35,362 nucleotides of DNA from a bacterium (GTDB taxonomy: Bacteria > Patescibacteriota > Gracilibacteria > UBA4473), in NCBI GenBank assembly GCA_018648585.1, contig JABGQW010000018.1:1-35362 (forward strand), in the 5' to 3' direction. Positions 16,701 to 32,190 of the stretch are shown in pieces; within the stretch, counting starts at the first letter, position 1, and each line of letters opens with the position of its first letter. The notes beneath the pieces were generated by a model. The model was not told the origin of the DNA. It searched no databases and saw nothing but the letters and a program-made list of their open reading frames with translations. Made by a program: the position numbers and the translations under genes.

Positions 16701-19700
16701 TGCGGATCCGCGGGCGAAATTTGAATTTCTGCCTCGCCAGATTTTTTCCCGGGAAAAAAGAGAATCGACGCGCGCGCGTCAGAAATTTCTGCCGTTCCGT
16801 CGTCGGAAAAAGTCCCCCACTCCGATTCAAATTTCAAAACTTCTCCATCATTTTTTCGAGAAATTTCGTCCTCCAAATTCTGCACCACCACGTCGATTTT
16901 CATCCCGTCCCAGTCGTCCGCGACGATTTCAGATTTTTCAGAAAATGCTTCGATTTTTTGTGTCGTGACGCGCACGTCCAATTTTTGCGGAGAAATTTCG
17001 AGCGCAGAAAATTCGAGCGAAAACCAGCCGCCCACGTCGTCCGTTTTGGGAACGAGGAAAAAATCCGCCGTCCCAAATTTCGCAGTCGCAGACTCCCCCG
17101 GGCTGATCGAAAAAAGTCGCAGCGCGTCCGAACCGATTGTTTTGAGGGAAATTTTTGTGGAAAAATCTGTCGTCAAAATGTCGCCATTTTCGTCCAAAAG
17201 TTCGACCGCAATTTTTTGCGGAACCGTGTCTCCCGCAGAAATTTTCAATTTTTCTGGCGACACGCGAATCGCCACCGGAACTGGAATTTCTCCGTGCGCC
17301 GACACCGATTGAAACGGATTTTTGAAATCGTCAAAATTTGAACTCAAACCCCCAAGTTGGTCTGGAATAATCGTGGAAAGTTTTCCGAGAAAATCCGGCA
17401 AATCGCTCAGCCACGGGATCAAACACTGCGTCGGCCACTCGATCAAACTCGCGTTCTCGCACGCACCTTTCGAAATTTTGTTCGGATCGTCGTCAGAATT
17501 TTGTCCCAAAATATCGCTCGCAAATTCGCCGCCCAAAAACTCGATCGCCTCCTCGCTCTGCCCGAGATTGAACATTTGTTCGGAAAGTTGCGCCGCCCGG
17601 AACGTGTTTGTCGGAAGCTCGCTCCCGCGCTCGAACGCCACTCCGACGCTGCCACCAGGGATCGTGTCCGATTCTTTTCCGATGATTTCAATAATTTCGT
17701 AGCCGTGGAAATCCGGATTTTTCAAAACCGATCGCCCCGTCGCATCGTCAGAAAGTGCCGCGATCAAAACTTCGATATTTTTGGTTTCCAAGTCCTCGCC
17801 GAGCCACTGGATCGCATCGATCACTTCGTCAAAACCGAGTTCGGAAAACACGTCGTCGAAAACGGTTTCGGCAATCGTCGCGCCCATTTTGAATTTTTTC
17901 GCGTGAGAAAATTTTCCAAATCCGCAGTCGCGATCGTACGAAATCGAAACGTCCGCGTCGCCTGAAATCGTCGCGGCAACGTCAAAATATTCGCAGTCGT
18001 CGTCAAATCCCGCCACGACATCCCACGCCGAAACAATCGTCCCAAAATCATCGATCGCGGTTTCGAGCGTTTCCAGATTTTCTTGATTCGTCGCGATCTG
18101 CGTCAGCAACTCGGATTGAAAAGTCGGCAAATCGCCGCCGGTGTCCGTGATTGCGTCGTCAAAATTTTGAAATTCGAGCAGCACATCCGTCTCGAGCTGA
18201 TTCGCGTCGGCGATCGTGGAGATCAAACTTGCCGTGATCGCGAGCGCGTTGACCGCAGAATATTTTGTTGAAATTGTGTCAGAAATTTCGGTTTCGGCCA
18301 GATTCAAATTTGTTTCGAGTGCAGAAATTCCGGCAGTTTTTTCGTCAAAAAGTTCGGGCAATTCGATCGTCTGAATTTTCAAAACTCGAAATTTGAATGC
18401 GAGCAAATTTTCTCGCAGCCGTTCCAATTTTTCGTTGAAATCGGGAAATTGTGCGGACAAATCCGTCGAGGAATTTTTTTGAGAAATCAGCAAATCCAAC
18501 GCAATTTCTTCAAAATTGAGCGCCGAAATATAATCTGTTTTGTACGCCGAAGTGAAACTCTGCGCGGCAATTTTTTCGGCCTGAATTTCGGATTTTTGTT
18601 GCTGCAAAAAACTCAAACTCACGTACGAAATCACGCGGTTTTGAAAAATGGAATCCGTCGCGTCGAGCACGTTTTCGAGACTGGAAAATTGCGGTTCCAA
18701 AATCGTGGAAAAATCCGACAAATTTTCATCGAGTTCTGTTTCGAGCGCAGAAATTTCAGTGGAAAAATCCGTGGAAAAATTTTCGAGCGCGTTGCCGCTG
18801 GCGACGGAAATTGAATTTTTCAAATTGTCGTTCGTGGCGATCAAACACGTTTCGAGATTGTTCGCGATCGTCGTGGTGAAATTGTACGTCGCGCACCCGC
18901 CGCCGCTCCAAGTCGTGCACGCCGCAGCGCGCGCGGAATCGAAACACGTTTGAATTGCAAAATTTCCCGTTGAAATTTCGTCGGAAAATTCGGTGCTGCT
19001 GGCCGGAAATTGTGCGGTGAAATTTTCGGTACCGACACGAAATCGTTTCAAAAGATCCGTGCGCGGATTCAAAAAATTCATTTGAAATTCCCACTCCGTT
19101 CCAATTTCAGGAAGTTCGCCGAGAAAAATCGTGCCGCCCCACCCGCTCGAATTCTGCGCAGAAACGGGAAAAGTTTGTCCCGGACCGCCGCTCGTGACAT
19201 TTCCGCTCGCATCAATTTGCACGGAAACATCGCCGATCTGCGCGAGTAAATTTGTGTCATTTTCGCGATCAGAATCGCTCGCATAAATTTTGAGAAAATT
19301 TTCTTCCGCCGCATTTTCAACAAATTTCAAAAAAAGTTTCGGCACCGCCGCCGTGTCCCAGCCGGTGATTTGTGAAAAATCAAAAACGTACGGATCGTAC
19401 TCGTACTCCCACGTTTCGCCGATCTCCGGAACGGAATCCAGCACGATCGATCCGCCCCAGCCGCTGGAATTTTGCGCCGCGATCGAAAAAATTCCCGCGC
19501 CGCCCGAAACATCGCCCGTCGTGGCGAGCAGAATCGGAAGCTCCGCGCCAGAATTATTCGGATCTTCGATTTTTCCCCAGATTTTCAAAAAAGTCGAACC
19601 CACAGAAAAAACCGTCTGCAAATAAATTTCCGGAAACTGCGTCGTGTTCCAGCCGGTGATCTGCGAATAATCCGTCGCGTGGCGATCGACCACCGCCGCG

Positions 19701-21802
19701 GAAATTTCTGATTCCATCGTGCGCCCCGACTCGAGTCCGAAATTTTCAAGTTCGTCGACGAGATTTTCGTTGGAAATTAAATTCGCGTCCTCGACGATGC
19801 CGTTGACTTCCGAAATTTTGGATTTCAAAAGCGCCCAAATTTGTGTTTCAAGATTTTCGTCCGTCAAATTTTGTGGAAAAAATTCGAACAAATCCGGAAA
19901 AACAACGTACTGAAATTGATCGCCCAAATCGTAAAATGAAAATCCGCGCGGATCGTCCACCGGAATCGAATTTGTCGACATTTCTGAAAGTTGTGTTTGA
20001 ATCGTTTCGATTCGCGGTTCGTCGTGTTTCATCAGCGACGAGAATGTTTTTGTTTCTCCCGCTTTTTCTTCCAAAACGAGAATCTGCGAACAGCCGCTCG
20101 CGCCACGAAATCCGGCGAAAACTTCGCGCGTTCCCGCGATGTCAAAAACCGGACTCGTCGCACCAAAATGTTCCCACGCGCCCGCCAGCCGATGAATCGA
20201 ATTGTACGGCGGCGCCGGCGAAACGTAGCACGTTCCGTTTCGGGTTAAAACACACGGCCACGTGTCCCACTCCGATCCGGTGTCGCAGTCGCCGTTCGAC
20301 ATTTCAAAAGTGTCCGAATTGATGTCCGTGTTCATCGCGCAGCAGCCCTCGAAAATATCTGCTTTTTGATCTTTTGGTTGCGTGTCGTCGCCGTCCCAGT
20401 CGACGCAATCTTCTTCCGGACGAGAAAGTTCTGGATCGGCGGTGGAGAAATTGTACGAGCGATTTGCCTCGACCATTTGTGCGATTGGAAAGTCTGTCGT
20501 CCGCGGCGTTCCGCGCAGCAACGTGCAATCTTCGGCGCTGTCCATTTCGGAGCGGCGAATTCCATTCCAGTACAAATCTTTTTCGTACCGGCGCGCCACA
20601 GCAAAAAATGGAGGAATCGGCAGCGGAGTCGCGTACGCAAATTTTTCTTTTGTCGGCACGATCAAATCTTTGTCCAAGTTCTGCGTTTCAACATAATTCC
20701 AGAGCGTGTCTTCGATCGCATCGTTCGCATTTTTCAAAAGTTCCGCCGCCCACTGATCTTTCCGCGCGACGAGGGAAAATGTCGTGTCCACGTCCGACGG
20801 CTGCCAGCGTCCCGTGCGCAAAATCCACGTGTTGAATTCTTCGATTCGGTTTCTCGCTGCTTCGAAATATCGTTTTGTCAAATTGTCGATCACGCCTTTT
20901 GCGTGCACGTCCGGAATTCCGCCGAACGAAACCGCGGTCGACTCGGTTGGCCGCAATTCTTCATCCAAAATTTCTGGCGGAACCAATTCTTCGAGATCAA
21001 TGTCGCCAAAAAGTTCCTGCGCCCAGTGTTTGTTGAAACGCAAATACATAATGTCGTCGACGTGATCGATCCAATTTTGGTACTGCTGCAATAATTCTGG
21101 CGAAAGTCCCTCGCGCTGCCGCGGCAAATCGACGAACAAAACTTTTTTTGGAAACTCAGTTTTTTCCTCGTGGACGAGATGATTTCGCTGCAAAAATTGC
21201 AAAATTTCGTGCGCGCGCGCGTCGTCCGAATCCGCGTCCGATCGAATCACGCCGTGCCAAATTTCTGGTTCGTTGTCGCCAGACTGCCAGACAAATTGAG
21301 ATTTTTCAAAATCCCACTCGTAATTTTTATTCTCGAAATCGACGTACGGAAAAATCGTCGGCCAACTCCGTCCATTTTTGTCGACCACGGGAAATGGAAC
21401 ATCACCGATCAAAACTGTTCCGATCAACTGCGACCGATTGTCGTTTTCGATTCCAGAGAAAAAAAGATGCGCGTTTCCCTCGGCAATTTCGAAAACATCC
21501 GCATCCTCCGGCACCGGAATCAAAACGACACGCGCATTTAATTTTTTTTGAACGTCCATCGCGTACCGCTCGATCGCCGTGAAAAGTTCGCCGCGATCCA
21601 GCAACGAATTGGCAACGAGCACCGAAACAATTTTTACACGTTCGATTTCTGGCGGCGATTGAAATGAAATTTCCGCATCGGGCGCACTTTCCCACGGCCA
21701 AGAAAACGCGAGCGCCGTCGGCGAAAACGCACTGAAACACAACGAAAAAAGAGCGAGCGCGCTCGTAATTTTTTTTCTTAAATTTTTACGCCGAAAAATC
21801 AT
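7721..21802 (-). CDS. Giant secreted multidomain surface protein (4693 aa)
   Basis: The ATG at 21802 is chosen over a TTG one codon earlier. Residues 1-34 form a Sec signal peptide (basic start, hydrophobic core, ALA before FSWPW). Residues about 45-230 weakly recall C25 gingipain-like folds (LIGDVPFP, PYVDF). An acidic DWDGDD cysteine patch lies near 465-495 and two tandem about 98-aa repeats at 712-908. About 920-1270 is mainly helical. Ig-like/invasin-type beta units run from about 1512 to 2130. FG-GAP-like motifs lie near 2424-2560 and 4020-4040. A DUF11-like unit lies near 2645, a Pro-rich stretch at 2870-2970, a long coiled coil at about 3150-3520 and a Pro/Leu-rich segment at 3540-3785. 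The end has beta-sandwich repeats (PQISLL, LSGNEATATI). No LPXTG motif or C-terminal membrane anchor is visible. A role in attachment to other cells is inferred from the architecture only. Confidence 0.85.
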   Translation of the reverse strand: MIFRRKNLRKKITSALALFSLCFSAFSPTALAFSWPWESAPDAEISFQSPPEIERVKIVSVLVANSLLDRGELFTAIERYAMDVQKKLNARVVLIPVPEDADVFEIAEGNAHLFFSGIENDNRSQLIGTVLIGDVPFPVVDKNGRSWPTIFPYVDFENKNYEWDFEKSQFVWQSGDNEPEIWHGVIRSDADSDDARAHEILQFLQRNHLVHEEKTEFPKKVLFVDLPRQREGLSPELLQQYQNWIDHVDDIMYLRFNKHWAQELFGDIDLEELVPPEILDEELRPTESTAVSFGGIPDVHAKGVIDNLTKRYFEAARNRIEEFNTWILRTGRWQPSDVDTTFSLVARKDQWAAELLKNANDAIEDTLWNYVETQNLDKDLIVPTKEKFAYATPLPIPPFFAVARRYEKDLYWNGIRRSEMDSAEDCTLLRGTPRTTDFPIAQMVEANRSYNFSTADPELSRPEEDCVDWDGDDTQPKDQKADIFEGCCAMNTDINSDTFEMSNGDCDTGSEWDTWPCVLTRNGTCYVSPAPPYNSIHRLAGAWEHFGATSPVFDIAGTREVFAGFRGASGCSQILVLEEKAGETKTFSSLMKHDEPRIETIQTQLSEMSTNSIPVDDPRGFSFYDLGDQFQYVVFPDLFEFFPQNLTDENLETQIWALLKSKISEVNGIVEDANLISNENLVDELENFGLESGRTMESEISAAVVDRHATDYSQITGWNTTQFPEIYLQTVFSVGSTFLKIWGKIEDPNNSGAELPILLATTGDVSGGAGIFSIAAQNSSGWGGSIVLDSVPEIGETWEYEYDPYVFDFSQITGWDTAAVPKLFLKFVENAAEENFLKIYASDSDRENDTNLLAQIGDVSVQIDASGNVTSGGPGQTFPVSAQNSSGWGGTIFLGELPEIGTEWEFQMNFLNPRTDLLKRFRVGTENFTAQFPASSTEFSDEISTGNFAIQTCFDSARAAACTTWSGGGCATYNFTTTIANNLETCLIATNDNLKNSISVASGNALENFSTDFSTEISALETELDENLSDFSTILEPQFSSLENVLDATDSIFQNRVISYVSLSFLQQQKSEIQAEKIAAQSFTSAYKTDYISALNFEEIALDLLISQKNSSTDLSAQFPDFNEKLERLRENLLAFKFRVLKIQTIELPELFDEKTAGISALETNLNLAETEISDTISTKYSAVNALAITASLISTIADANQLETDVLLEFQNFDDAITDTGGDLPTFQSELLTQIATNQENLETLETAIDDFGTIVSAWDVVAGFDDDCEYFDVAATISGDADVSISYDRDCGFGKFSHAKKFKMGATIAETVFDDVFSELGFDEVIDAIQWLGEDLETKNIEVLIAALSDDATGRSVLKNPDFHGYEIIEIIGKESDTIPGGSVGVAFERGSELPTNTFRAAQLSEQMFNLGQSEEAIEFLGGEFASDILGQNSDDDPNKISKGACENASLIEWPTQCLIPWLSDLPDFLGKLSTIIPDQLGGLSSNFDDFKNPFQSVSAHGEIPVPVAIRVSPEKLKISAGDTVPQKIAVELLDENGDILTTDFSTKISLKTIGSDALRLFSISPGESATAKFGTADFFLVPKTDDVGGWFSLEFSALEISPQKLDVRVTTQKIEAFSEKSEIVADDWDGMKIDVVVQNLEDEISRKNDGEVLKFESEWGTFSDDGTAEISDARASILFFPGKKSGEAEIQISPADPQTMLPPEKIFFDIVPDLPAKISLDSDAQDLVLGGAWITVSGSVQDQFGNPIPAHDGTIQWRGAGLEIQNIDGPKSVRVRVPEKFSNTKNAEKGEQKSSEPNIFQNLRDSLISPAEKISADAATQKLSPEKLTASTEILPAQKFSTEFFIIKNPTFETEFSPDLIPAGTATPQKVSVRAVDPAGNLLRGNYPVSLKIEPADVGIFPQNFTLKNGTGEFEFFAGERAGKTSITLKSLGFVEHAFEFDIAPGDPAKIEISADQKTLNSASTDPLHLSFRVVDRFGNLVPDFDQKISLVLNPAEKISSAAKTDLVDLGVIGDDDFSIKSFLDDEISDSQAEQFSDFVVLDPADVPIFSGEGTANIFENGQTGKGFLVASVSDQNILPATFEFEVTRVLARSDFQTLSPKSQLTMLLGFPGGKLDAPNLGSRFLFDGESQAVATLIANPNAPRLLGQISAQAVVQAANPIFFPDDFFSTNFVASGGKLARARLIFSEPPSLFVGAKMRTKSGVYFSPASEISDFEISDGTLQFQGENLFSLRHGGGLDFASNEVSLYPIEKSILKWTVLFRSKKIGELEFHLENFETKIVDEFSTEILSDAIEILATDPDVSLQKIWTGASTAGESGVGIFSKKLTELQNRSLGGPQFSAEDVDTDRSVGWESAWKPGPLFSAGASIGRATQWGASDAVILLGDPSLSVQTENTKSSLGISPDLGVPLWKSSAGAIDQILIADVNRDARAEILTRVGKNIFALYHSMHELDNFRDMGPILRFEDGVRDAAVYPNSRGELLWLIQVNDAGELIFHRDFNGKFSREKINLGLENEILKIVVAQLNGDKFQDLVILDETNTLHFAYGRELPADEPSGFDVDANGFFAAQRLDQFAPSFEKIEENYDFAAQQNLDEDYFGRRSFPQLSTILASFDGVENSTFTDEIQQIAERNFARISENKKFDAQFSLELSNAKTTIEPGDTLEAKLEIFSTEKLEDFTLWIPDFVGMNLNADSISVDLSNADLKFTAGRNGFLLGISEIPLRTRTTFSWEFSATSVPPITFSAYDFSGNDGIDDIAVAWEIDDEKKLIQFLSDDPPRSFPTTGKSSDATEDSPGSIISETHTRKIVDAFGENFPSDFDAEAQAADIVSALQGFSNNSDGIPVHYQTADIDESLNQSSCGSGCGLPIPSYAFLAPGAQSLYLPPISFPMPPLPGTPVLWVGATPPFVGAGPMPTSQFRLYVMPTTTAQVALGFCLNPNVTNPTMIATGVPFPDPSTCFVVVPPLLELLGACPGNFLDLDLAAQESRKSLQPMFAAGGENLGSFIPRNKAELKNKQIAAADIITTWVQKQMREFSNIRLPSFEMVLPAFPKTKKSATQNSPSGANGADETGYRLLEDPSVQNSLAKIESSPFVQIKKREVAIPYPQFSIEQIQTLKSDFSTWKKDFQIWKHETKKSIRRSECELVAEGKWDAGEETADGICEESTNLIGLDTLIQLKKIETRAQFYTEFFNTLLDAKQSLDAVAAPEKKLKIAQTTISTAEKTSEISTKKSLTASAEKQLQSAEKSVENSADQAARSVDNLDEAGESVEALAEILSEFSSKINADETSMLRDSAQTLLASAQSAISLAATTAEQAVAVATEDLENSEKLETQISAEWERIAALKISFAASESEKENIKKSRAERKAERENLKKEKKKKLAEEKEKRKLEKPDLREMKNEGIEFARKMAAKELMKQLLAVDVFIDKVEEMMVAVDKNVQAIESYRETGERIQELPQEFKKLFKQIEETNFFLTEYWENWIKTNKRSVSKWQQFEQNLESMYKLWESIPDIFRQFTKDCGTCPVNRGTMEEWLMRVLLGKVKLPVIPAPQIPDVTFDLSRVAIGTQITVPDIVPKPVEFSVPKLPGLPGESVDFLLEQFMGQLGEQILKISITFGALKNLVVQILDGSFTASIPAWLEAFLTENFDQMILDLLASLQIPGLAGFIQNIPEIPILPSLPAELLNLDFNPPPVSIPTLPTLIEPPKLPDFLEKLQAILVIPKTLLKFFCLLNRGLLPIPEWKVATQVVAMTNRTSLMPLDFVSAALSPALPSPPSSSGGLLSPIFKKMQNAADQLPEDFSGVRVSADFDASNVTVKMESKFVPALEMMNDQIDQVQQKMSCVLDQLDAQAKGAGSLQNCSGSGAEEMKISRVENLENRSNFFSNANSERVSLFSPGENPRSPELEKSVDWLQKFLAYSLENSDSDFEIPEMKNALADFFEQPETWARLAPAQKSWLASTEFIDPSKIPTELPTDFDVDEQLEKTRGMTSEPKMYFFDSEQSLAEEITPVSLDGKSYTATISDLDLDGEKEIFYAIGSELYFKRRVDFDFTSEQSDAEFEAPTDRYTFWEFEKFVGNFTPTFSAENFVDASGTTFKFQPPWNKNLQYFEWVISDRPDHIFERGKISSDRAADEWRRIAFLIRPRGTKYDIRRVSSLIRKITGAPILYGSKIHTIQNFTLEECENSEIEKPFFPTETVFVGVAPHTRMVIKTLPRDGQQAERREIDLRAGEETIVDFAEVCATFGEAQYAEPGKIEKLEVRENGYFIDNMRLELGKNDEVQLDLFDETPITIEGGETYEMHHFTTEDSAIAYFKKLNLGNHYGSFVGFDGRDQSFSVQKLLHDPQPADDTVAPQISLLRGKKRTEYFGEPIEIDATRTIEEQAIDRVWWEFDGAVILDTADQKKFPEVFQNPQRALKIQIPAREKPEKVSFILHVTDLSGNEATATIEISLESPPLRLLEVSQREGRILGKLLSKIENLEISFSRERNDREIFLPKTVTTDAAGMFELGELSAEGNVEILDQNKNLAAAILPTGRVILENKNLTISVQSATEISPQKTEIRDTKNQIVAEISIAPSGENSVEILSGEKIDSKKFFQNSAVQALDRNLSDSIRWEKISGREPKFSGAVALVDSLQHETLGVLDRFGNFHSLQKNLSLRPKRSVSISEPVVFEILNEKVLGEFFVPVEKNVTVSSPKKPN
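19079..19669 (-). repeat. Two tandem ~98-aa repeats inside the giant protein
   Basis: Residues 712-808 and 809-908 align along their whole length. Both begin with (Y/F)SQITGW(N/D)T and share the block QNSSGWGG followed by PEIGxxWE(Y/F). The DNA copies have diverged, so the duplication is old at the nucleotide level but conserved in the protein. Each unit looks like an all-beta module of unknown family. Confidence 0.8.
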
Positions 21803-21828
21803 CAAATTTTGTGTGTTTTGTCCTGTCA

Positions 21829-21920: not shown

Positions 21921-24900
21921 TTACGCCGCCGCCGAAAGATCATCCGAACTCGATTCCGAAGTTTCCATTTTCACCACTTTTCCGCCGCCGGATTCCGGGC
22001 GAGAAAATCGTCCCGCGTGGTACATTTTGTCCAGATTTTTCCAGATCAAATCTTTATTTCGAAAAACAGTGTCGCCCGCCTCACCATCCACCAGTTCATC
22101 AATATTTTTTCGCGCTTTTGCAACTCTTGGATCATTTCCTTGGCGAACATTCCAACCGGATTTTTTCCCGCAAGTTGTTAATAAATATCCGTACTCCTGT
22201 CTCAGATTTCCTGCATCCAAAAAATCTCCCACAAAATCGTGAACCATGTCTCGGACAAACGCAGCGTTTTGAGAATAATTCGAATTAAAATTCCACTCAT
22301 CGTCTTCAAACGTCGTACTTCCGTGATTTCCCTCCGTTCGATTCCCAAGAAGCGTTTGAATCGCAATAAACGAAGCCCTCAGCCGCGATCCAACTTCCTC
22401 CAGCAAATTATTTTTTTTCGCTTGCCAGCCCGGAGCATCTCCGTACTGAGCATCTCCGTCACGAATAATTTCGTATTGTTGCTCGAAAAATAATCGATAT
22501 CCATCCAAGAAATTACGCCAGAAATCCTTCGTCATTTTTTCTTTCTGCGACGAATCCATATTGAGCGATCCCGCCACATCGTTCGCCGTAAATTCTGCGG
22601 AAAATGCCTGCGCGTCGTCGTGATCAAATTTTGCCGTTGCACTACGAACCGCCCGTCGCACGCGCGAATTTGCCGTCGGAGAACTGTGCGCAATTTCGTA
22701 AAAAAATCGAATCATCCGATTTTGCCCTTCTTTGTTATTTTTCACGTTGTACGTTCCCTCCGCGTCGCCGAGCATTTTTCCCCACTCGAGATAATCTTCA
22801 AACAACCAGCCGCCTCCGTGCGCACCAGGCGTTCCCTCGGGAACAATTCGTCCATCTTTTTTTGGCGATTCTCCATCCGTAAAAAAGTCCACGTGCGGAA
22901 AAAAGTACAGAAAATCTTTGTTCATTCGCATCACCGCATTTCGCGAGAGAAGCGGTTCTCCTTGCGCATTCAAACACGTCGCGCCCTGAATCAAAAACCA
23001 AAATCGACGATCGGGTTGCCCGTTCATTTTTCCCGCCGTGAATGCGTGTTTGATAAAAGCTTCGTATTTTCCTGGATCCACATTTGTTGTTTCCCCACGT
23101 TTCCAACGGCGCAACATGTCCGACAAAATTGCGTCACGTGCTTCTTTGTCATCTTCGTAATTTGTAAATTCTTCTTCGTACGAATCGGTCACCGTTTTCA
23201 ATTTTCCAGACAGCGTCGTTTCCCATTCTCGGAAAACTTCTTTTGACCAAATAAATTCCGCGGCGTTTCGCACTTTGTCCAAAATTTCTTTGTACGTCAA
23301 ATTGATCGTCCCTGCGGGAAATGTTTCGATGGGCGGTTTTCCCTGCAGCCGCTCAAAAACGCGCCAAAGTTGCGGATCGTCCCATTTGAGAAATCCTTTT
23401 TCATTCAAAAGATTAATACACGCTCGCACTTCGTCTTCGTCCGACGAATTGTACATTTGCGCTTTGATCGACCATCCCTCCTGATCATGGTACTGCGATT
23501 CAAATTCTTTGATTCGCGCGCCCTCAGAATCTTCGAGCCGTCGATGAAATTCTTTTCCCCAGACTGATTCTTTTCCAAAAAAATGAGTTCCCAGAGCTCC
23601 GACAGATTTATCTTCGCGGCGTTTAAATCGCGTGTCGTTCACTTCCACTGCGTCCTGAACAATTTTGATGATACTGTAAATTGAAAATCGCGTGAACGTT
23701 CTGTGCGACGTCGGTTTTTTCATCCATTCCTCGTAGCCATCAATCCATTTTTTAAATTCACCGGATTGTTCTTTTGCCAAATCTGCTGACGCACCAATTC
23801 CATCAAATTGCGCCATTTGATCGAGTGCTTCAGCTCGAGTTTCTGGCGATTCATCGTACTTGGACAGCCAACGATCGAGAAATTTTGAATCCAAAAATCG
23901 TTCTGAATTTTGTTTTAATTGTTTGGCAACTTTTACGTGATTTTTAACAATTTCTTGGACGTGCGTGCTGTCGAGTCCGTATTTTTCATAAAAATCATCC
24001 TCGCTCAATATTCGCTCATCATTTTCAACGCGGGACTTGATCCCAGTGAGATTTTTTTCGAAATCGAAATAACTTTTTTTGTACCCGGCGGCGATATTTT
24101 GAAAACGCGCACGAAATTCGTCTTTGTCCGGCGATTGATCGTCAAAAAAATCAAGTCGCTCAAGCGTTTCTGCTGCTTTTGTCGAACCCTCGAGAGAAGT
24201 GTCCAATTCTTTTCCCAGCGCGGCGAGATCCCCGTTTCGAAAATTGAGAAATCCCAGCAAAACTTTGCACTGTTTTGGAATTTTTGTCCAAAACGGTTCT
24301 TGCCCTGAAAATTCAAAATTCTGTTTCGGCGCCGCCGCGCGAATTTCTGAAATCGCAGAATCCATTTCTTCGAGCGCGTTCTCGGGAAACTGAAAATATT
24401 TTTCGATAAAATTTTCTGGCGCCGTTCCCTCCGGAACGAGCTCGCGAACAATTCCGCGCATGTCGTTCATAATTTTTTCAAACTCAGAACGCGTCCCCGG
24501 CCAGTCGGCTAAAATTTCGCGCATTCCCCGCTCCGCGTCTTTTTTCTTCTGAATTTTTTCGTCGCCCGACGCGGCGTTGTACGCTTTGTACAAATCGCCG
24601 ACGCGGGAAAATTGAGACGTGAAATTTTCAGAAAGTTTTTTCGCCGATTTCGCCAGCGAATCGGTGTGCAATCCGAGAGTTTGGATCAGTTCGCGCCCCG
24701 GCGCCCAGTACCGAATTTCTTCGCCGTCGGACGTAATTTCCGAAATATTTCGCCCCGATCGGTACCCGTCGAGCTGAAATTGGAACGCGGCATCGAGTCG
24801 CGCCGCTTCGTCCAAAAGATTTTGTTTTTTTGCCGGATCGGTTTCGTGTTTCGCTTTTTCTTCAAGATTGAAAATGTGCGCTCGCTGTTTTTCGTGCGCG

Positions 24901-27332
24901 TCTTCAATTTTCAAATCAAAATCTTTTTTTTCTGCGGCCTGCTGCGAGTACGCACCGTTCATCGAATCTAAATTTTGCGGACTCGCGTACAATCCGCGGT
25001 GAATCCGGTTCCAGCCGGTGACAAAATCGTCCCAATCTTCGGTCGCGATGTGCGGACGAAGTTTTTCCAAAATATCGTCGCGGAAAAATCCGAGCGATCC
25101 CTCCAAAACTTGCGCCAGCTGCTGCGATTCGGGAAATTCTTTTTTGAGATCAATTCCCTGCTCCCGCAGTTCGTCGATCAAATTTTCGTACGAAAGTTTT
25201 TCATCAAGTTCCGCGTACCACGGCGCGAATTTGTCGTCGCTGTCGGAAATCGCCGGCAACGAAATTCCGTCGAAAACCGTGTCAACCACGGCAGAAAATT
25301 TTTCGCGAAAATTCTGAATTTTTTCCCAGTTTGGAAGTCCGTGGAGCGCTGAAAATTTTTCGGGCATTTCTGCCGCCAATTCTTCGTCCCACAAAATGCT
25401 GAAATCCGCCGCGTGCAGCGAGTGCGTTTCGACGCGTTTTTGAAGGGCGGAAAAATACGAATCTTGAATTTCGTGCGCGCGTTTTTCTGGATTTTCAAAC
25501 ACATTTTTCCAATCTTCGTACAATTTCAAATCGACCATTTTTTCGCCCCGATCTTTTTCCAATTCTTTTCGCTCGGTTTCAATTTTGTCGATCTGTGATT
25601 TTGTCGCAACGGCGAACGGAAACGCCTGTTTCGCCAAATCCATTTCGTCCTCGGATTTTTTTCGATCGGTTTTGAACGCTTCAAATTTTTCTCGAAAATG
25701 CAAAATCCACGGCACTTCTTTTTCAAAATTTTCTGGTTTCGCGCGATTCGCAAGTTCGTTCGAAATTTCGAGTGAAAACTTTTCGATCAATTTTTCACGC
25801 GCGTCGTCATCGGAAGTTTGTGAAATTTTTTGTCGAAACTCTTCAAATTTTTCTTGAGATTTTGTGAGATATTCTGTCTGGCGTCGCTGCAATTCCGTCA
25901 AATTAGTTTCGTACGTTTGCAATTCTTCCGCTTTCAAATCCCCGTCTCGATGCGCTTTTCGCATTTCCGCAAGTTTCTCGGTTTGTGCTGTTTCGTGTTT
26001 TTTGTTGTCGCCCCACTGTTTGAGCAATTCGCCAAATTTTTCGTCGGAGAAAAACTCGTCCCAAAAACCGGAAACTGTTTTTTTCTGTTTTTCCGCCGCG
26101 TCACGGTACATCGCGGCGTTGTCATTTTCCGGATGTTCGGTGAGAAATTTTTGAACTTCCACCGATTCAACCTGTTTTTGTTCGTCTTTGAGTTCTTGAA
26201 TTTTTTTACCTTTTTCGTGAATTTCTTTCGCGAGCGGATGAAAATCCTGCCACGAATTTTCGGGCATTTTTTCAAACAAAAGTTTGTCCGGCTGCGCCAA
26301 AATCGCCTGCAACGATCGCACGTGCGTCGGGAGAAAAATCTGCTGCCGCGACGCAAATTGCAAAAACTGCACCGCGTTTCCGCGTTCGACGAATCGCTCG
26401 AGTTTTTCTTTTTTTTCTGGAGAAAGTTTCGTGCCCAAAATTTCGTCGCTTTCGTTTTCGAGAAATTCCGCGACCAATTCCCACGTCGCCAAAAGTTCCG
26501 GATTTGCGTCGAGTTGTTTTTGCGGATCAAAAATTTCCTGCGTCACTCCCGCCGCGAGTTGATTCCAGTGTTCAAAGTTTCGAAAACTTCCCCACCCATC
26601 CGAACTCGGAAAAAGTCGGCGAATTTCGAGCGCCAAAACGCGATCGGTCATCGTGATCGGTTTTTGTTTGTCGCCAGACTGAATCACTTCGACAATTTTT
26701 CCGCCGACCGTTTTGTAATTCGACAAAATATTGACCGTGTGTTCGACAAGTTTTTGTTCCACGCTCAGAAAAAGTTCGGTCAGCGCGCCCTGTTTTCCAA
26801 CGGCAAATTTTTTCTGCAATCTTTTGTACAGCGTGCAAATTTTCGCGCCCTCGAGCGTGCTCCACTGCGCCGGATTTTTCTGGGAAATGGATTTGAGATC
26901 TCGCACCTGCGTGTCGAGTTCCTGGTCGATTTCGCGGCGCATCTGCGGAGAAATCAGATTTCGAAGTTTGGGAAAATCCTGCACCAGCGCCAAAATTCTT
27001 GGCGGCACATTTTCAACGCCACTTTTTCGTGCGACGCTCAAATAATATCCGACCAGATCGCGGAACTGCACTTTTTGTTTGTCTGATAATTTTGAGAAAT
27101 TTTTCTCGAGAAAATCCAAATGCCGCGTGGAAAATTTCAGCGGATTTTTCAACAAATTTTCAATTTTTTCCTCGACGCTCGCCTCGCGTTCTTGTTTTGA
27201 AGTTTTTGATCGCTGCTGATTTTGCGACGTTTCATTTTGTCCCTGCGATTCTTCAGACGCACCGAGATCCTCCTGGAAAATGTATTTTTCCAGCGCTGGA
27301 TCGGCGCAGAATCGAGATCGGAGGAATTTCAT
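21921..27332 (-). CDS. Large helical cytoplasmic-type protein (1803 aa), function unknown
   Basis: I do not recognise a family. No signal peptide or membrane span is visible. After a short conserved-looking start (MKFLRSRFCADPALEKYIF), residues about 25-60 are Gln/Ser/Glu-rich and disordered. Predicted helical and coiled-coil stretches with dense Lys/Glu heptads occur near 370-390, 450-505 and 540-610. The middle stays helical. From about 1200 to the end the composition changes to an aromatic- and Trp-rich, more globular part, with motifs such as RRFWFLIQGATC, GGGWLFEDYLEWGKML and RASFIAIQTLLGN. The C-terminus is Ser/Ala-rich. It has its own promoter 3' of the TrbL-like gene and precedes the giant gene. 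A role as a cytoplasmic partner of the membrane proteins encoded beside it is inference from position. Confidence 0.8.
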   Translation of the reverse strand: MKFLRSRFCADPALEKYIFQEDLGASEESQGQNETSQNQQRSKTSKQEREASVEEKIENLLKNPLKFSTRHLDFLEKNFSKLSDKQKVQFRDLVGYYLSVARKSGVENVPPRILALVQDFPKLRNLISPQMRREIDQELDTQVRDLKSISQKNPAQWSTLEGAKICTLYKRLQKKFAVGKQGALTELFLSVEQKLVEHTVNILSNYKTVGGKIVEVIQSGDKQKPITMTDRVLALEIRRLFPSSDGWGSFRNFEHWNQLAAGVTQEIFDPQKQLDANPELLATWELVAEFLENESDEILGTKLSPEKKEKLERFVERGNAVQFLQFASRQQIFLPTHVRSLQAILAQPDKLLFEKMPENSWQDFHPLAKEIHEKGKKIQELKDEQKQVESVEVQKFLTEHPENDNAAMYRDAAEKQKKTVSGFWDEFFSDEKFGELLKQWGDNKKHETAQTEKLAEMRKAHRDGDLKAEELQTYETNLTELQRRQTEYLTKSQEKFEEFRQKISQTSDDDAREKLIEKFSLEISNELANRAKPENFEKEVPWILHFREKFEAFKTDRKKSEDEMDLAKQAFPFAVATKSQIDKIETERKELEKDRGEKMVDLKLYEDWKNVFENPEKRAHEIQDSYFSALQKRVETHSLHAADFSILWDEELAAEMPEKFSALHGLPNWEKIQNFREKFSAVVDTVFDGISLPAISDSDDKFAPWYAELDEKLSYENLIDELREQGIDLKKEFPESQQLAQVLEGSLGFFRDDILEKLRPHIATEDWDDFVTGWNRIHRGLYASPQNLDSMNGAYSQQAAEKKDFDLKIEDAHEKQRAHIFNLEEKAKHETDPAKKQNLLDEAARLDAAFQFQLDGYRSGRNISEITSDGEEIRYWAPGRELIQTLGLHTDSLAKSAKKLSENFTSQFSRVGDLYKAYNAASGDEKIQKKKDAERGMREILADWPGTRSEFEKIMNDMRGIVRELVPEGTAPENFIEKYFQFPENALEEMDSAISEIRAAAPKQNFEFSGQEPFWTKIPKQCKVLLGFLNFRNGDLAALGKELDTSLEGSTKAAETLERLDFFDDQSPDKDEFRARFQNIAAGYKKSYFDFEKNLTGIKSRVENDERILSEDDFYEKYGLDSTHVQEIVKNHVKVAKQLKQNSERFLDSKFLDRWLSKYDESPETRAEALDQMAQFDGIGASADLAKEQSGEFKKWIDGYEEWMKKPTSHRTFTRFSIYSIIKIVQDAVEVNDTRFKRREDKSVGALGTHFFGKESVWGKEFHRRLEDSEGARIKEFESQYHDQEGWSIKAQMYNSSDEDEVRACINLLNEKGFLKWDDPQLWRVFERLQGKPPIETFPAGTINLTYKEILDKVRNAAEFIWSKEVFREWETTLSGKLKTVTDSYEEEFTNYEDDKEARDAILSDMLRRWKRGETTNVDPGKYEAFIKHAFTAGKMNGQPDRRFWFLIQGATCLNAQGEPLLSRNAVMRMNKDFLYFFPHVDFFTDGESPKKDGRIVPEGTPGAHGGGWLFEDYLEWGKMLGDAEGTYNVKNNKEGQNRMIRFFYEIAHSSPTANSRVRRAVRSATAKFDHDDAQAFSAEFTANDVAGSLNMDSSQKEKMTKDFWRNFLDGYRLFFEQQYEIIRDGDAQYGDAPGWQAKKNNLLEEVGSRLRASFIAIQTLLGNRTEGNHGSTTFEDDEWNFNSNYSQNAAFVRDMVHDFVGDFLDAGNLRQEYGYLLTTCGKKSGWNVRQGNDPRVAKARKNIDELVDGEAGDTVFRNKDLIWKNLDKMYHAGRFSRPESGGGKVVKMETSESSSDDLSAAA

Positions 27333-27341
27333 TGTTCGGTA

Positions 27342-27371
27342 ATTGTAAAATTAAATTCGTGAGTTTGTCAA
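27342..27371 (-). promoter_or_regulatory. Promoter of the 1803-aa gene: TTGACA-N18-TACAAT
   Basis: On the minus strand, a perfect -35 TTGACA (27366-27371), an 18-nt spacer and TACAAT (27342-27347). The ATG begins 9 nt after the -10, a leaderless layout. The TGA inside the -35 hexamer is the stop codon of the upstream 851-aa gene, so the two genes share these bases. Confidence 0.8.
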
Positions 27372-29923
27372 GGTTTTTTAAATTCTTTGTTCTTTGCATC
27401 CCAGATAATCTTTCCTTTTTTCAAACCAACTGCTTCCAGAATTTTCTTCTGCTGCACAGGATCAATATCACCATCAATAGTTTTCATTGCATTATTTAAT
27501 TCTGTCAATTTTTCTAAATTTTCACCTTGACTTTCAGCTACTTTTATATCAATAACTTTTGAAGTTCCACCAACCGTAACAACGTGAAAATACTTATTTT
27601 CCACAGCAGTACCTTGTGTATTCATATCTAATATTTCTCCACTTGGAATTGTTATCTTTCCATTCTGCAGGTGAGTAACCTTTGTTTCCCATTCCGTAGC
27701 ATTTTTCGGAGGTTCTGAAAATTTCTGAGATGCCTTCAAAAGTTCTTGCGGTTGAATTGTTTTTCCTTGTGCATTTTCTATAAATTCACCCCAATTTTCT
27801 ACCGTAGTACCACCAACCACAACTCCTCCAGAAGCATTTATGACAACATTTTTAGCAAATGCATTTTGTTCAGCTACTTCATCATTTCCCACTTTCGTCG
27901 GATTCGTCGAAGTTTTTCCGTCTGTTGCAGTTTTATCTGTCGAAGAAGATCCGCCGTCGTGATCTTTGAATGGTTTGTCTTTGTAGTCTTCGAGAAACCG
28001 CGATTGAGTACTTTTATTTGCAATTTGTTTCATTGCTTCTTCCGTGTGTCCCGTCCACTGCGATTCAGAAATTCCTTCCATCATTTTTTGAACCTCTGGG
28101 TTGTCGTGATTGACCAACCCGTTATAAACACGAGCGTTTCCTGCAGAAGCTGCTCCCGCTGCACTCATTTTTTTGAACACTTCAGAAGCTGTCAAATTTC
28201 TCGATTGAATATCGTTGATTAAATTTGTCGTTTTTTGATCTGCTTCCGTTCCCATTCCAAGCGCAATTTTGAGCGTATCTGCTTGTGTTCGTTGTGCCGA
28301 CTCTTGATTGTATTTTATCGCACTCGGCATCTGTGCCAGCGCCCCGAGCGAAACTTTTTCTTTTCCTGTACCAACCGCAAAAATTGGACGATAAATTGTC
28401 GCTGCTTTTGCCGCGGTAGTTCCCAGTGTTTCAATTCCAGTTTTAATGTAGTTGGTGACGGTTGAAGCAAGATTTCCTTCGATCGCCCAAAACGCTGCCA
28501 TCCAAAAAATCACGATCGTCGCAATTTGCCACAAAATCGCGTACTCGCCCTGTCCCATCTGCGACAACGCCGGACCAAATTGAAACGCCTGTCCGTTGAT
28601 ACTCGCTTCTTTTGCGCTGAAAGTCACCATCGCGGACAACATCACAAAACTTACCGCAAACGCCGCCGCAATTTTGAGCGGCATAATTATGTGCGTGATT
28701 AATTTTTTCCCCAAATCTCCGCCAGATTCTCCAAATCCCATGATCGACGCAGCCACCAGCACCGGAGAAAAAACGAGTCCGAGCCAAAGGACAACAACTC
28801 GCGCGATCAACGCGACAAAAATCGCCACCAGCGCAGTCAAGTAGGCAATCGCCATAATTCCAGAAAAAAGCGTGTTGTCCAAAACACTCGACAGACTTCC
28901 GAGACGTGCGCCGAGCTGCGGCAACCGTTCCAAGTGCATAAAAACAGTTCCAAACGCCATAAAAAGATTTCGTCCTGGTTTGGAATGCGGCGTCAAAACG
29001 CTGGAAGATGTTGAATCTCCGCCGGCGAAATGTTCCTGATTGAGTTTGAAAAGACAATCGTGATCCTCCGCCCACGAGTCAAAATCGGATTCACTTTCCG
29101 CACTACTCTGCCACCCCGCACAAAACGTGTCGTTGATCTGCTCGAGCGCACTCGCGCAAACGTACATTTTTTCCGTGTTTGAATCTTTGACCACGATCTG
29201 CGCAGGATCTGAATCTGATTGTATTTTTTCATTTCCCGCACTTTTCAATTCTGCTCGAACATTCGTGCAATCCTTTCCAATTCCCAAATCGATGATATCT
29301 TCCGGTTTAAAAAAATTCTGCTCTTTCACAGTCTTTTCCAAAATTTCTTTCTTTTCCTCGTTGTCGACGCTGATCCACGCACGCTGTTTCACGATCGAGT
29401 TGAGCGTGTTGGAATCGGTTCCTTCGAGTTTTGTGTCGGCGATTCCGAGAATCGCAACCGTTCCGACGTTGATTCCGTCGATGATCAGTCGAAACCCGAG
29501 CAACGAAAAATTGATCGCCACCAGCGATAAAATAATTTTTGGCAATTTATCTTTGATCGTCCAATTTCCGCCTTCGCCTTTAAACGACGCGAACAAATTT
29601 GAAAAAGCGAGAAACACGATCACACCGACAAAAACGACGTTCACCAGATTTCGCACCCACACCCACATCGGATGAATCGCCGCCATCGCTTCTGGTCCCG
29701 TGATCAAATCCGTTCCGAGCAGTTCGCCGCCAAAATTCAGCAGCAGCAGCGTCAAAAACGTAAAAATATTAATCACGACCGCGGCGACTTCTGCCATCCC
29801 CTGCAACGATTCCGAACCGACGAGCGATGTCGCGAAAGTCACTCCTGGCGCGATCAAAGCGAGCAAAAAAATGCCCGAGATCGCAGGAGAAAATTTTTTG
29901 AATCGGCCGAGAAGTTTTTTCAT
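27368..29923 (-). CDS. TrbL/VirB6-like polytopic membrane protein (851 aa)
   Basis: The pattern resembles the TrbL/VirB6 membrane component of type IV secretion-like systems, as often found in Patescibacteria. This is a fold-level impression, not a motif match. Hydrophobic segments lie at about 12-33 (possibly a cleaved signal), 44-66, 92-112, 127-148, 355-395 (probably two passes), 412-437 and 462-485. A loop at about 190-350 has several cysteines (KDCTN, VCASAL, TFCAGW, DHDCLF) and is probably extracytoplasmic. Residues about 490-851 form a long hydrophilic, Lys/Thr/Gly-rich tail. The DNA coding for that tail is visibly more AT-rich than the membrane part. It lies upstream of the 1803-aa gene and downstream of the PH-like/553-aa pair. 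No VirB4- or VirD4-type ATPase is in the window. Confidence 0.75.
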   Translation of the reverse strand: MKKLLGRFKKFSPAISGIFLLALIAPGVTFATSLVGSESLQGMAEVAAVVINIFTFLTLLLLNFGGELLGTDLITGPEAMAAIHPMWVWVRNLVNVVFVGVIVFLAFSNLFASFKGEGGNWTIKDKLPKIILSLVAINFSLLGFRLIIDGINVGTVAILGIADTKLEGTDSNTLNSIVKQRAWISVDNEEKKEILEKTVKEQNFFKPEDIIDLGIGKDCTNVRAELKSAGNEKIQSDSDPAQIVVKDSNTEKMYVCASALEQINDTFCAGWQSSAESESDFDSWAEDHDCLFKLNQEHFAGGDSTSSSVLTPHSKPGRNLFMAFGTVFMHLERLPQLGARLGSLSSVLDNTLFSGIMAIAYLTALVAIFVALIARVVVLWLGLVFSPVLVAASIMGFGESGGDLGKKLITHIIMPLKIAAAFAVSFVMLSAMVTFSAKEASINGQAFQFGPALSQMGQGEYAILWQIATIVIFWMAAFWAIEGNLASTVTNYIKTGIETLGTTAAKAATIYRPIFAVGTGKEKVSLGALAQMPSAIKYNQESAQRTQADTLKIALGMGTEADQKTTNLINDIQSRNLTASEVFKKMSAAGAASAGNARVYNGLVNHDNPEVQKMMEGISESQWTGHTEEAMKQIANKSTQSRFLEDYKDKPFKDHDGGSSSTDKTATDGKTSTNPTKVGNDEVAEQNAFAKNVVINASGGVVVGGTTVENWGEFIENAQGKTIQPQELLKASQKFSEPPKNATEWETKVTHLQNGKITIPSGEILDMNTQGTAVENKYFHVVTVGGTSKVIDIKVAESQGENLEKLTELNNAMKTIDGDIDPVQQKKILEAVGLKKGKIIWDAKNKEFKKP

Positions 29924-29941: not shown

Positions 29942-29970
29942 ATTGTACCAGATTTTACGCGAAAAATCAA
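29942..29970 (-). promoter_or_regulatory. Promoter of the TrbL-like gene: TTGATT-N17-TGG-TACAAT
   Basis: On the minus strand, TTGATT (29965-29970), a 17-nt spacer ending in TGG, and TACAAT (29942-29947). The ATG lies 18 nt beyond the -10, so the leader is about 11 nt. It lies just after the stop of the 553-aa gene. Confidence 0.8.
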
Positions 29971-29975
29971 CGTTT

Positions 29976-31637
29976 TCAGCTCTTTTTTTCAGCGGATTCT
30001 TTGCGCACTTCTTCGAGAATTCTTTTCAACGTCGCCGGTTGTTCTGAATATTTAAATTTTCCGTCTTTTTCTTTGTCCTCTTTTTTCTTCAAAGCTTTCA
30101 ATTCTTCGCCATATTTTTTCTTGTCGGCTTTTTTCATTTTTTTCCAAATCGCTTTTTCTTCCTCCGACGTGAACGCGTTTGTCGCTTTTCGATATTTTCC
30201 GATCGATTTTTTGTACATTTTTGTTTTGGCAAAATTAACCGCTGCCAAAAACGGTTTTACCGCAAATTTAATTATTTTTTCTCCATCTTTTTTCCGTTCT
30301 TTCCACCATTCTTTTTGAATCACTCCGTTGAATTTCATCACACCGCTCACGAGTAAAAATGACAAAATCGTCAAGCTCAACGCCATTCCGGTGCCTCCCA
30401 TCGAGAGAAATTGGCGCACTCCGTGTTTTTGAACATCGTTCATTTTTCGCAAATCTGCGTCAGAAATTTCCGCAATATTTCCCTCCGCAAGCGAAAGTGG
30501 ATCAAGATTTCCACGTTCTTTTTTGAGCATCGCATCGGAAAATGCTTCTTGGAATTTTTTCGAAATTTCAGGACGCGCCGGATCAGTGAAAAAAAGTCCG
30601 ATCTCCGTCTGCGCAGAAGTCGCCAGCATTCGACGAATTTGTGCCGGTGAAAATTTCATCCGATCGCTGGTTTTTAATTTCAAATCGTCGTTCGCGATCT
30701 GAACTTTCATTGCCGAAAATTCCTGATCGGTCAGCCGAATTTCTTCCGATTGAACAGAAAATTCCGCTGCTTTTTGAATCAACTGATCTTCTGTGAAATG
30801 ATCCGCGCGCAGTTCGTCGTACAAATGGTACGATTCCATCGCGTCGACAATTTCTTTGAGAGGCGGTGCGAGCGGAAAACTCTCCCGCAGCGAATAAATG
30901 TCCGCCTGCGCATCTCGCAGCGCTTCACGGTTTGTGTCGGCACTGTGTTTTCCGTACCGCGCATATTCGTACAAAGTTTTTCCGTCTTTGAGATTTTCAA
31001 ATAATTTTCCGGTCACAAGTCCGCCAACCAACCGAGGAACCATCACACTGGCGGCAATTCCGGCGGTTTCACCAGCGGCTTTCATCGCCGTGGAAACACC
31101 GTTAAGAATCACCGGATGCGACAACGCGGTCGCCAAAACGCCCCATTTAAGCGTGGCTTTCAATCGAGCTGCGGGCGTTCCTTCCGTCGACATTCCGCCG
31201 ATCAGTCCCGCGACGCCACCGATTTTGAGATTATTTTTGTCAAAACCAAACGATTTTCCCCAGCCGGCATCGCCTTGCCGCTGCAAATACTGATCAAGCG
31301 GACTTTTTTCCCAGAAATCCTGGATCGCCGAATCCCCGTACAATTCGTCAACTTTTTTGGTGAGATTTGAGCTCAGTTGTTTTGGAGTCCAATTTTTTGC
31401 CACTTCCGGATCAAAATTTATTTTTTGTTTGACGATCGAAATAAATTCGCCAGAAATTTCTTTGATTTTTTCCTGATCCAAATTTTGAAGTTCGACGTCG
31501 GTCAAAAGTGTCCCCAACTTTTTTTCAGTTTCAATTTTTTCCGCCACCGGAACAATTTCCGGAAGTTTTGATTTCTCCGGCGAGACACAAATCAAGCGGG
31601 GAAATTTTTCAGAAGAAAATAAAAAAAGATGTTTCAT
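29976..31637 (-). CDS. Membrane-associated protein (553 aa), function unknown
   Basis: I do not recognise a family. The N-terminus (MKHLFLFSSEKFPRLICV) is mildly hydrophobic but not a typical signal peptide, and recalls the start of the 1803-aa protein in having a short basic and aromatic lead. Residues about 136-216 are Gly/Ala-rich and hydrophobic (GGVAGLIGGM, then WGVLATALSHP and a VPRLVGGLVTG segment), which could insert in membranes. A mixed helical part follows. A clear transmembrane helix lies at about 411-437 (LSLTILSFLLVSGV), and the last 100 residues are extremely Lys-rich, suggesting a cytoplasmic tail. The start lies 4 nt after the stop of the PH-like gene, so the two form one transcription unit with translational coupling. 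Confidence 0.75.
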   Translation of the reverse strand: MKHLFLFSSEKFPRLICVSPEKSKLPEIVPVAEKIETEKKLGTLLTDVELQNLDQEKIKEISGEFISIVKQKINFDPEVAKNWTPKQLSSNLTKKVDELYGDSAIQDFWEKSPLDQYLQRQGDAGWGKSFGFDKNNLKIGGVAGLIGGMSTEGTPAARLKATLKWGVLATALSHPVILNGVSTAMKAAGETAGIAASVMVPRLVGGLVTGKLFENLKDGKTLYEYARYGKHSADTNREALRDAQADIYSLRESFPLAPPLKEIVDAMESYHLYDELRADHFTEDQLIQKAAEFSVQSEEIRLTDQEFSAMKVQIANDDLKLKTSDRMKFSPAQIRRMLATSAQTEIGLFFTDPARPEISKKFQEAFSDAMLKKERGNLDPLSLAEGNIAEISDADLRKMNDVQKHGVRQFLSMGGTGMALSLTILSFLLVSGVMKFNGVIQKEWWKERKKDGEKIIKFAVKPFLAAVNFAKTKMYKKSIGKYRKATNAFTSEEEKAIWKKMKKADKKKYGEELKALKKKEDKEKDGKFKYSEQPATLKRILEEVRKESAEKKS

Positions 31638-31641
31638 TTTT

Positions 31642-32190
31642 TCAAAGTTTCAGAGCGCGAATCCACAGATCCGTCAGACTTTCTTTTTTTTCGGTGAGTT
31701 CGGAATATCCCTGCGCCGAAAGTTTTTCGCGGAAAAAATCGGGTGCCAGTTCTCCCATTTGGAGCATTATTTTTTCGTCGCGTTTGGACTGAAGTTGCAA
31801 ATTCAACACGGAAACGGTTTTGTCGTACACAAACCAAAATCCGGAAATTTTTTCGCGCGGCACAAATCGTTCCCCAACAAAAAATCCATTTTCACAAACC
31901 GTCACCTGCTGCGGTTCATTTCCGTGGCGATGCGCCCAAAAATAAACTACCGCCGCAAGAAACAAAGAAAATGCGGGAAGCCAGCCCCAGTCGGTTGTTT
32001 TTGTTTGAAAATCGTCAAAAATTGCCCACGCCGCCAGCCCACAAATCACGAAACAAAAAACCAAAATCCAAATAAATCCGCGCTGGTGCGGATGGTAATC
32101 AAACGCCGTCCAATCGAAAATTTTTGTTCCCGGATCAAACGGATCTGCTGTTTGCTGCGAAGAAATATCGGAAGTCATTTTTGGATTCAT
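31642..32190 (-). CDS. PH-like/DUF two-helix membrane protein (182 aa)
   Basis: Two transmembrane helices are visible at about residues 38-58 (FIWILVFCFVICGLAAW) and 70-88 (WLPAFSLFLAAVVYFWAH), separated by a short polar loop. The C-terminal half (about 93-182) begins VTVCENGFFVGERFVPREKISGFWF. This looks like the bacterial PH-like domain found after two helices in many Patescibacteria proteins encoded near type IV secretion-like genes. That assignment rests on pattern only. The N-terminal 35 residues are polar. It has a strong promoter of its own and is the first gene of the unit with the 553-aa gene. An inner-membrane accessory role for the neighbouring TrbL-like protein is plausible. Confidence 0.75.
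   Translation of the reverse strand: MNPKMTSDISSQQTADPFDPGTKIFDWTAFDYHPHQRGFIWILVFCFVICGLAAWAIFDDFQTKTTDWGWLPAFSLFLAAVVYFWAHRHGNEPQQVTVCENGFFVGERFVPREKISGFWFVYDKTVSVLNLQLQSKRDEKIMLQMGELAPDFFREKLSAQGYSELTEKKESLTDLWIRALKL

Follow-up and report, generated by a model that had tools for sequence, protein, structure and literature searches.

The 35,362-nucleotide (nt) contig JABGQW010000018.1 (hereafter the window) of the Gracilibacteria assembly GCA_018648585.1, a genome of 1.05 Mb in 32 contigs, encodes a soluble helical protein of 1803 amino acids (aa), P0001. Sequence comparison places P0001 in a family restricted to one class of the phylum, links its gene to that of a VirB6-family membrane protein and identifies at its N-terminus a short tag shared with other large proteins. 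These findings point tentatively to P0001 as a tag-bearing, lineage-specific client of a dispersed VirB4/VirB6-type type IV secretion system (T4SS) of Candidatus (Ca.) Gracilibacteria, acting in or through the machine, a reading that we prefer while giving it somewhat less than an even chance. P0001 and its parts lie in the window as follows.

21921..27332, minus strand: P0001, soluble helical protein of 1803 aa, from its open reading frame (ORF) and homologues.
27258..27332, minus strand: N-terminal tag, residues 1–25 (MKFLRSRFCADPALEKYIFQEDLGA), from a hidden Markov model of orthologue N-termini.
27198..27257, minus strand: low-complexity linker, residues 26–45, predicted by AlphaFold to be disordered (predicted local distance difference test score, pLDDT, ~32).
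23748..27197, minus strand: N-terminal and middle helical bundles, residues 46–1195, fast evolving, from AlphaFold and identity to a congener.
22017..23747, minus strand: conserved C-terminal domain, residues 1196–1772 (577 aa), with a DHDD motif at 1570–1573, which defines the family, from a 33-sequence alignment and AlphaFold.
27342..27371, minus strand: promoter-like TTGACA-N18-TACAAT, ending 9 nt before the P0001 ATG; similar -10 elements precede orthologues.

A preliminary description of this DNA had proposed a helical protein of this length without a signal or membrane span, and the ORF, a hydrophobicity scan and AlphaFold models bore this out. No window of the scan reached the transmembrane threshold and no signal peptide was found; P0001 has neither of the features, signal peptide or membrane span, by which a Sec-exported surface protein is recognized. 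The start codon at 27332 (ATG) is supported because orthologues also begin with M-K and a promoter-like element lies just upstream. TGGTATAAT-like elements also occur near the start codon in orthologues, which suggests that these genes may have very short leaders. Promoter-like sites with TACAAT were seen 9–19 nt ahead of ATG, all on the minus strand, for P0001 (27342–27371), VirB6 (29942–29970) and the small neighbouring gene P0004 (32209–32237). Composition shifts along the protein, with K+E falling from 23 % in residues 1–600 to 15.5 % in the last 608, while F+W+Y (8.4 to 12.5 %) and Gly (3.5 to 8.1 %) become more frequent. The aromatic character by which the C-terminal third had been set apart is thus real but modest.

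Structure prediction, as had been proposed, gave confident helical models without a known fold. The C-terminal domain, modelled from the 33-sequence alignment, was compact and nearly all helix (pLDDT 86.8; predicted template modelling score, pTM, 0.83), and residues 1–1195 were also nearly all helix (pLDDT 81.9, pTM 0.70). The models consist of helical bundles with the longest helices spanning ~45 residues, and residues 18–45 are predicted to be disordered. Foldseek searches of the PDB (both models) and BFVD (C-terminal domain only) returned no matches at E≤0.001, and the hits listed had template modelling scores <0.25. Exportins, HEAT proteins and tape-measure proteins were rejected as folds for P0001 (template modelling scores <0.25, none with E≤0.001).

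Searches of P0001 against Pfam, NCBIfam, PHROGs and PDB sequences gave no credible matches, and this result, together with the fold search, supports the view that the protein matches no known family. Weak Pfam matches to Ku_PK_bind, DUF5847 and DUF6381 were rejected as being under the cut-offs and in unrelated stretches. Models of described T4SS components in Pfam/NCBIfam (e.g. VirB4/TraG ATPase and PrgI) did not match P0001; VirB4 and PrgI are genes separate from it. The label of orphan holds in this respect, but P0001 is not isolated: homologues were detected in 36 of 60 relatives by single-sequence search and in 43 by the separate C-terminal profile search that had been suggested. In a phylum-wide even sample of 381 genomes, 32 contained the family and all 32 belonged to one class, the ultrasmall bacteria of Ca. 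Gracilibacteria. Judged from these sequences, the family, as defined by the C-terminal domain, is mostly single-copy, mainly vertically inherited and found in most sampled families of the class. A second partial match is present in a few genomes. In a tree of the C-terminal domain, families f1, f5, f9 and f18 each formed one clade and f2 and f15 were mixed. The recoded relatives G030, G032, G039, G041, G050, G057 and G058, which have many TGA codons in VirB4 or VirB6 frames, keep VirB6 and have no P0001 match.

Conservation is concentrated in the C-terminal domain. Pro1479 and Asp1570 (full-protein numbering) were invariant in the 33-sequence alignment, and nearly invariant residues include Ser1217, Arg1238, Gly1248, Glu1270, Asp1300, Gly1313, Trp1317, Gly1413, Gly1434, Lys1435, Gly1450, Arg1557 and His1571. 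Within-genus identity was 72 % for block 1401–1600 and 36–56 % per 200-aa block over the first 1200 residues, with 50 % for VirB6, 38 % for the neighbouring protein P0003, 68 % for DnaX and 83 % for VirB4. The neighbours of P0001 in the window are as follows.

27368..29923, minus strand: P0002, polytopic membrane protein assigned to the VirB6 family (the 'TrbL-like' gene of the preliminary description), from profile and gene context.
29976..31637, minus strand: P0003, orphan with one predicted transmembrane segment; homologues elsewhere carry the N-terminal tag.
31642..32190, minus strand: P0004, small membrane protein with two hydrophobic stretches, conserved beside VirB6 or P0001.
7721..21805, minus strand: P0007, secreted giant of 4694 aa with an N-terminal hydrophobic signal.

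P0002 has eight hydrophobic segments, in keeping with the polytopic inner-membrane character of VirB6/TrbL. Its membership of VirB6/TrbL rests on gene context because no curated profile matches: none of 13 family members had a match in Pfam, and P0002 had none in NCBIfam. A profile of P0002 found matches in 186 of 286 genomes of the phylum. Outside the class, 77 genomes had both the P0002 family and VirB4, and in 60 of them the two lay within 15 kb, 59 on the same strand. In a genome from a family in the same class (G049, L152:1975–9946, minus strand), VirB6-like, PrgI, TrsD-like and VirB4 genes are contiguous, the TrsD-like label being given from position and sequence judged by eye. This differs from the scattered arrangement in the genome of the window, in which contig 13 carries VirB4 and contig 14 carries PrgI together with a TrsD-like gene; linkage of the P0002 family to VirB4 and PrgI/VirB3 was found in other genomes and not in this one. 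In Gracilibacteria, TrsD and PrgI have been reported to lie mostly away from VirB4, and VirB6 homologues to be scarce or absent there and in Microgenomatia, 'suggesting extreme sequence divergence' (PMC12102498). From its profile and context, P0002 is taken to be a member of the patescibacterial VirB6 family, and it fits the gene that was missing from Gracilibacteria in that survey.

VirB6 was directly upstream of P0001 on the same strand in six families (f1, f4, f16, f18, f21 and f22), and P0004 and P0003 adjoin VirB6 in several. The earlier suggestion of a scaffold or substrate of the membrane complex gains from this neighbour and gene order as far as association is concerned, but not in the choice between the two roles. 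P0007 lies downstream of P0001 only within its own family, where several genera share the arrangement. Identification of P0004 as PrgI was rejected, PrgI (PF12666) being a separate gene on contig 14. In genome G021, a 1665-aa soluble orphan (L159:2323–7320, minus strand) lies directly downstream of VirB6, i.e. in the position of P0001. It had no relatives in 49 other genomes apart from one weak 87-residue match, and its homology to P0001 is unsupported (hhalign E 0.49). Near the contig end, positions 33397–35319 (minus strand) encode a 640-aa protein with a CARDB domain and a weak APP_N match (25.3 bits, cut-off 22.1) that is probably due to chance.

The N-terminal tag is ~25 aa long, with the consensus MK-[FLI]-[LIV]-x(8-13)-[RK]-aromatic-[VI]-[FYW]. 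When a profile of the first 32 residues, built from f1 orthologues only, was compared with 619 ORF N-termini, the top three matches outside the family were P0003-like proteins. A second profile (14 P0001 and two P0003 N-termini) matched eight further proteins from model position 1 in six frames of 16 genomes (E up to 0.21), and every match began exactly where an ORF of 216–1226 aa starts. One orthologue pair aside, no homology was detected among these eight proteins. Matches were rescored with a P0001-only model, using 17,598 internal-Met segments as controls. The eight further proteins scored 8.4–26.6 bits, the three P0003-like proteins 6.7–15.3 bits and one more protein of the window's own genome (L263:11538–13628, plus strand, 696 aa) 6.3 bits; the best control scored 5.2 bits and none reached 6 bits. 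The eight proteins were selected by a many-genome search, and weight is placed on their position at ORF starts and on the controls rather than on E-values of the retrained model.

Sampling of the window's own genome for tagged proteins covered ~419 kb. Further large proteins of that genome are a 933-aa tagged protein (L219:5002–7800, minus strand, 16.1 bits) and a 1230-aa protein with a peptidoglycan-binding-like stretch (L264:11417–15109, minus strand) that fits the tag by eye only, its 3.2 bits being equalled or exceeded by 16 controls. An R-hydrophobic-hydrophobic-F-like element close to the start is retained in 8 of 15 P0001 orthologues from the other families of the class (background 4 %). 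A 737-aa tagged protein (L224:834–3044, plus strand) has no Sec signal and contains PG_binding_1 (PF01471, 24 bits against a cut-off of 23), and one tagged orthologue pair has conserved Cys and Pro-rich linkers. Peptidoglycan-binding domains or stretches, conserved Cys and Pro-rich linkers are typical traits of exported proteins.

A client of a secretion machine fits these observations because P0001 is linked to VirB6, has no Sec signal and carries a tag common to unrelated large proteins. P0001, lacking a Sec signal, would be synthesized in the cytoplasm, and its N-terminal tag, followed by the disordered linker, would be read by a receptor at the neighbouring genes' inner-membrane machine. 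The same tag would bring in P0003 and several other large proteins, and the helical body of P0001, with its conserved C-terminal domain, would work in or through the machine. We infer both the reading of the tag by the VirB4/VirB6 machine and the passage of P0001 across the membrane. Translocation is suggested by the exported-type features of a few tagged proteins, and we lean slightly towards it over permanent docking. It is possible, if doubtful, that Gracilibacteria use a Sec-independent N-terminal export tag by which a divergent, dispersed T4SS sends giant helical proteins, including P0001, to the wall or host cell.

Several observations weigh against a client role. P0001 does not adjoin VirB6 in f2, f5, f9, f11 and f15; in f5 the two are ~20–25 kb apart when they share a contig, and in the other four families they are on different contigs. 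Co-occurrence with the TrbL-like gene had been proposed as a check, and of the 60 genomes 55 had VirB6 and 43 had P0001: 40 contained both genes, three P0001 only, 15 VirB6 only and two neither. Joint presence is uninformative here, as almost every genome of the class has VirB6. P0003 of the window has no tag score and fits the tag by eye only, and the internal transmembrane segment of P0003 suits docking better than export. Peptidoglycan-binding domains can occur in cytoplasmic proteins too, and P0001 matches no known T4SS signal. The conserved core of P0001, with 64–72 % within-genus identity, evolves at a housekeeping rate (VirB6 50 %, DnaX 68 %), which is unusual in an effector.

Some of these points agree with P0001 serving permanently in the cytoplasm as a scaffold or adaptor for a VirB6-centred inner-membrane complex, a role that we regard as possible and nearly as likely as that of a client. 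The tag would then be a docking motif that keeps P0001, P0003 and other helical proteins at the machine, and no part of P0001 would leave the cell. A mostly single-copy gene with largely vertical inheritance (f1, f5, f9 and f18 one clade each) and a slowly evolving C-terminal core favour a core component, and the all-helical extended architecture, the internal transmembrane segment of tagged P0003 and the gene order beside VirB6 are in keeping with it. However, at least nine further large proteins bear the tag, nearly all of them without homology and one with a peptidoglycan-binding domain, which exceeds what a scaffold would need, and P0001 is not linked to VirB6 in several families. The shared tag favours P0001 as a recruited or exported client.

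P0001 is unlikely to be a structural protein, cytoplasmic or surface-associated, with no tie to the secretion machine, an inherited gene order and a tag that addresses the membrane or another receptor. Such a protein would explain why P0001 is away from VirB6 in f2, f5, f9, f11 and f15, why VirB6 is widespread in genomes without P0001 and why P0001 has its own promoter-like site and no operon dependence. Against it stand the adjacency of P0001 and VirB6, with order and strand conserved in six families, and the tag that is also borne by P0003-family proteins, which are encoded beside VirB6. Nothing was found to suggest that the long ORF is spurious or misassembled, a reading already refuted by full-length orthologues in many independent assemblies, with confident folds and a conserved start.

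To our knowledge, little is understood of the ways in which bacteria of the candidate phyla radiation (CPR) affect their hosts. The shared tag suggests a previously unrecognized putative address label for a T4SS or similar machine. It could serve to list candidate clients in each genome, and the cargo of the machine would become a directly testable question. The analysis points to the VirB6 of Gracilibacteria and to a lineage-specific module beside it; the T4SS was essential in the only epibiont tested (PMC12102498).

LXG proteins of the type VII secretion system and prePAAR-bearing effectors of the type VI secretion system are secretion substrates with unrelated bodies and a common terminal tag. 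P0001 resembles them in having a short N-terminal signature, in this case followed by a disordered linker, on one of a set of large unrelated proteins without a Sec signal. At the level of family models, it is set apart from them by the absence of matches in Pfam, NCBIfam and PHROGs. The giant surface proteins of the predatory CPR bacterium Vampirococcus lugosii (PMC8080830) are likewise very large and come from a host-dependent lineage, but reside in the membrane or at the surface and contain known interaction domains, whereas P0001 has no signal, span or known domain. A further comparison is with the patescibacterial, MPF-FATA-related T4SS (PMC12102498). P0001 matches none of its described components, but the neighbour of P0001 is its VirB6 family, and other contigs of the window's genome carry VirB4, PrgI/VirB3 and a TrsD-like gene. 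In contrast to that survey, a divergent VirB6 was found here, together with a lineage-specific module of P0004, P0003 and P0001.
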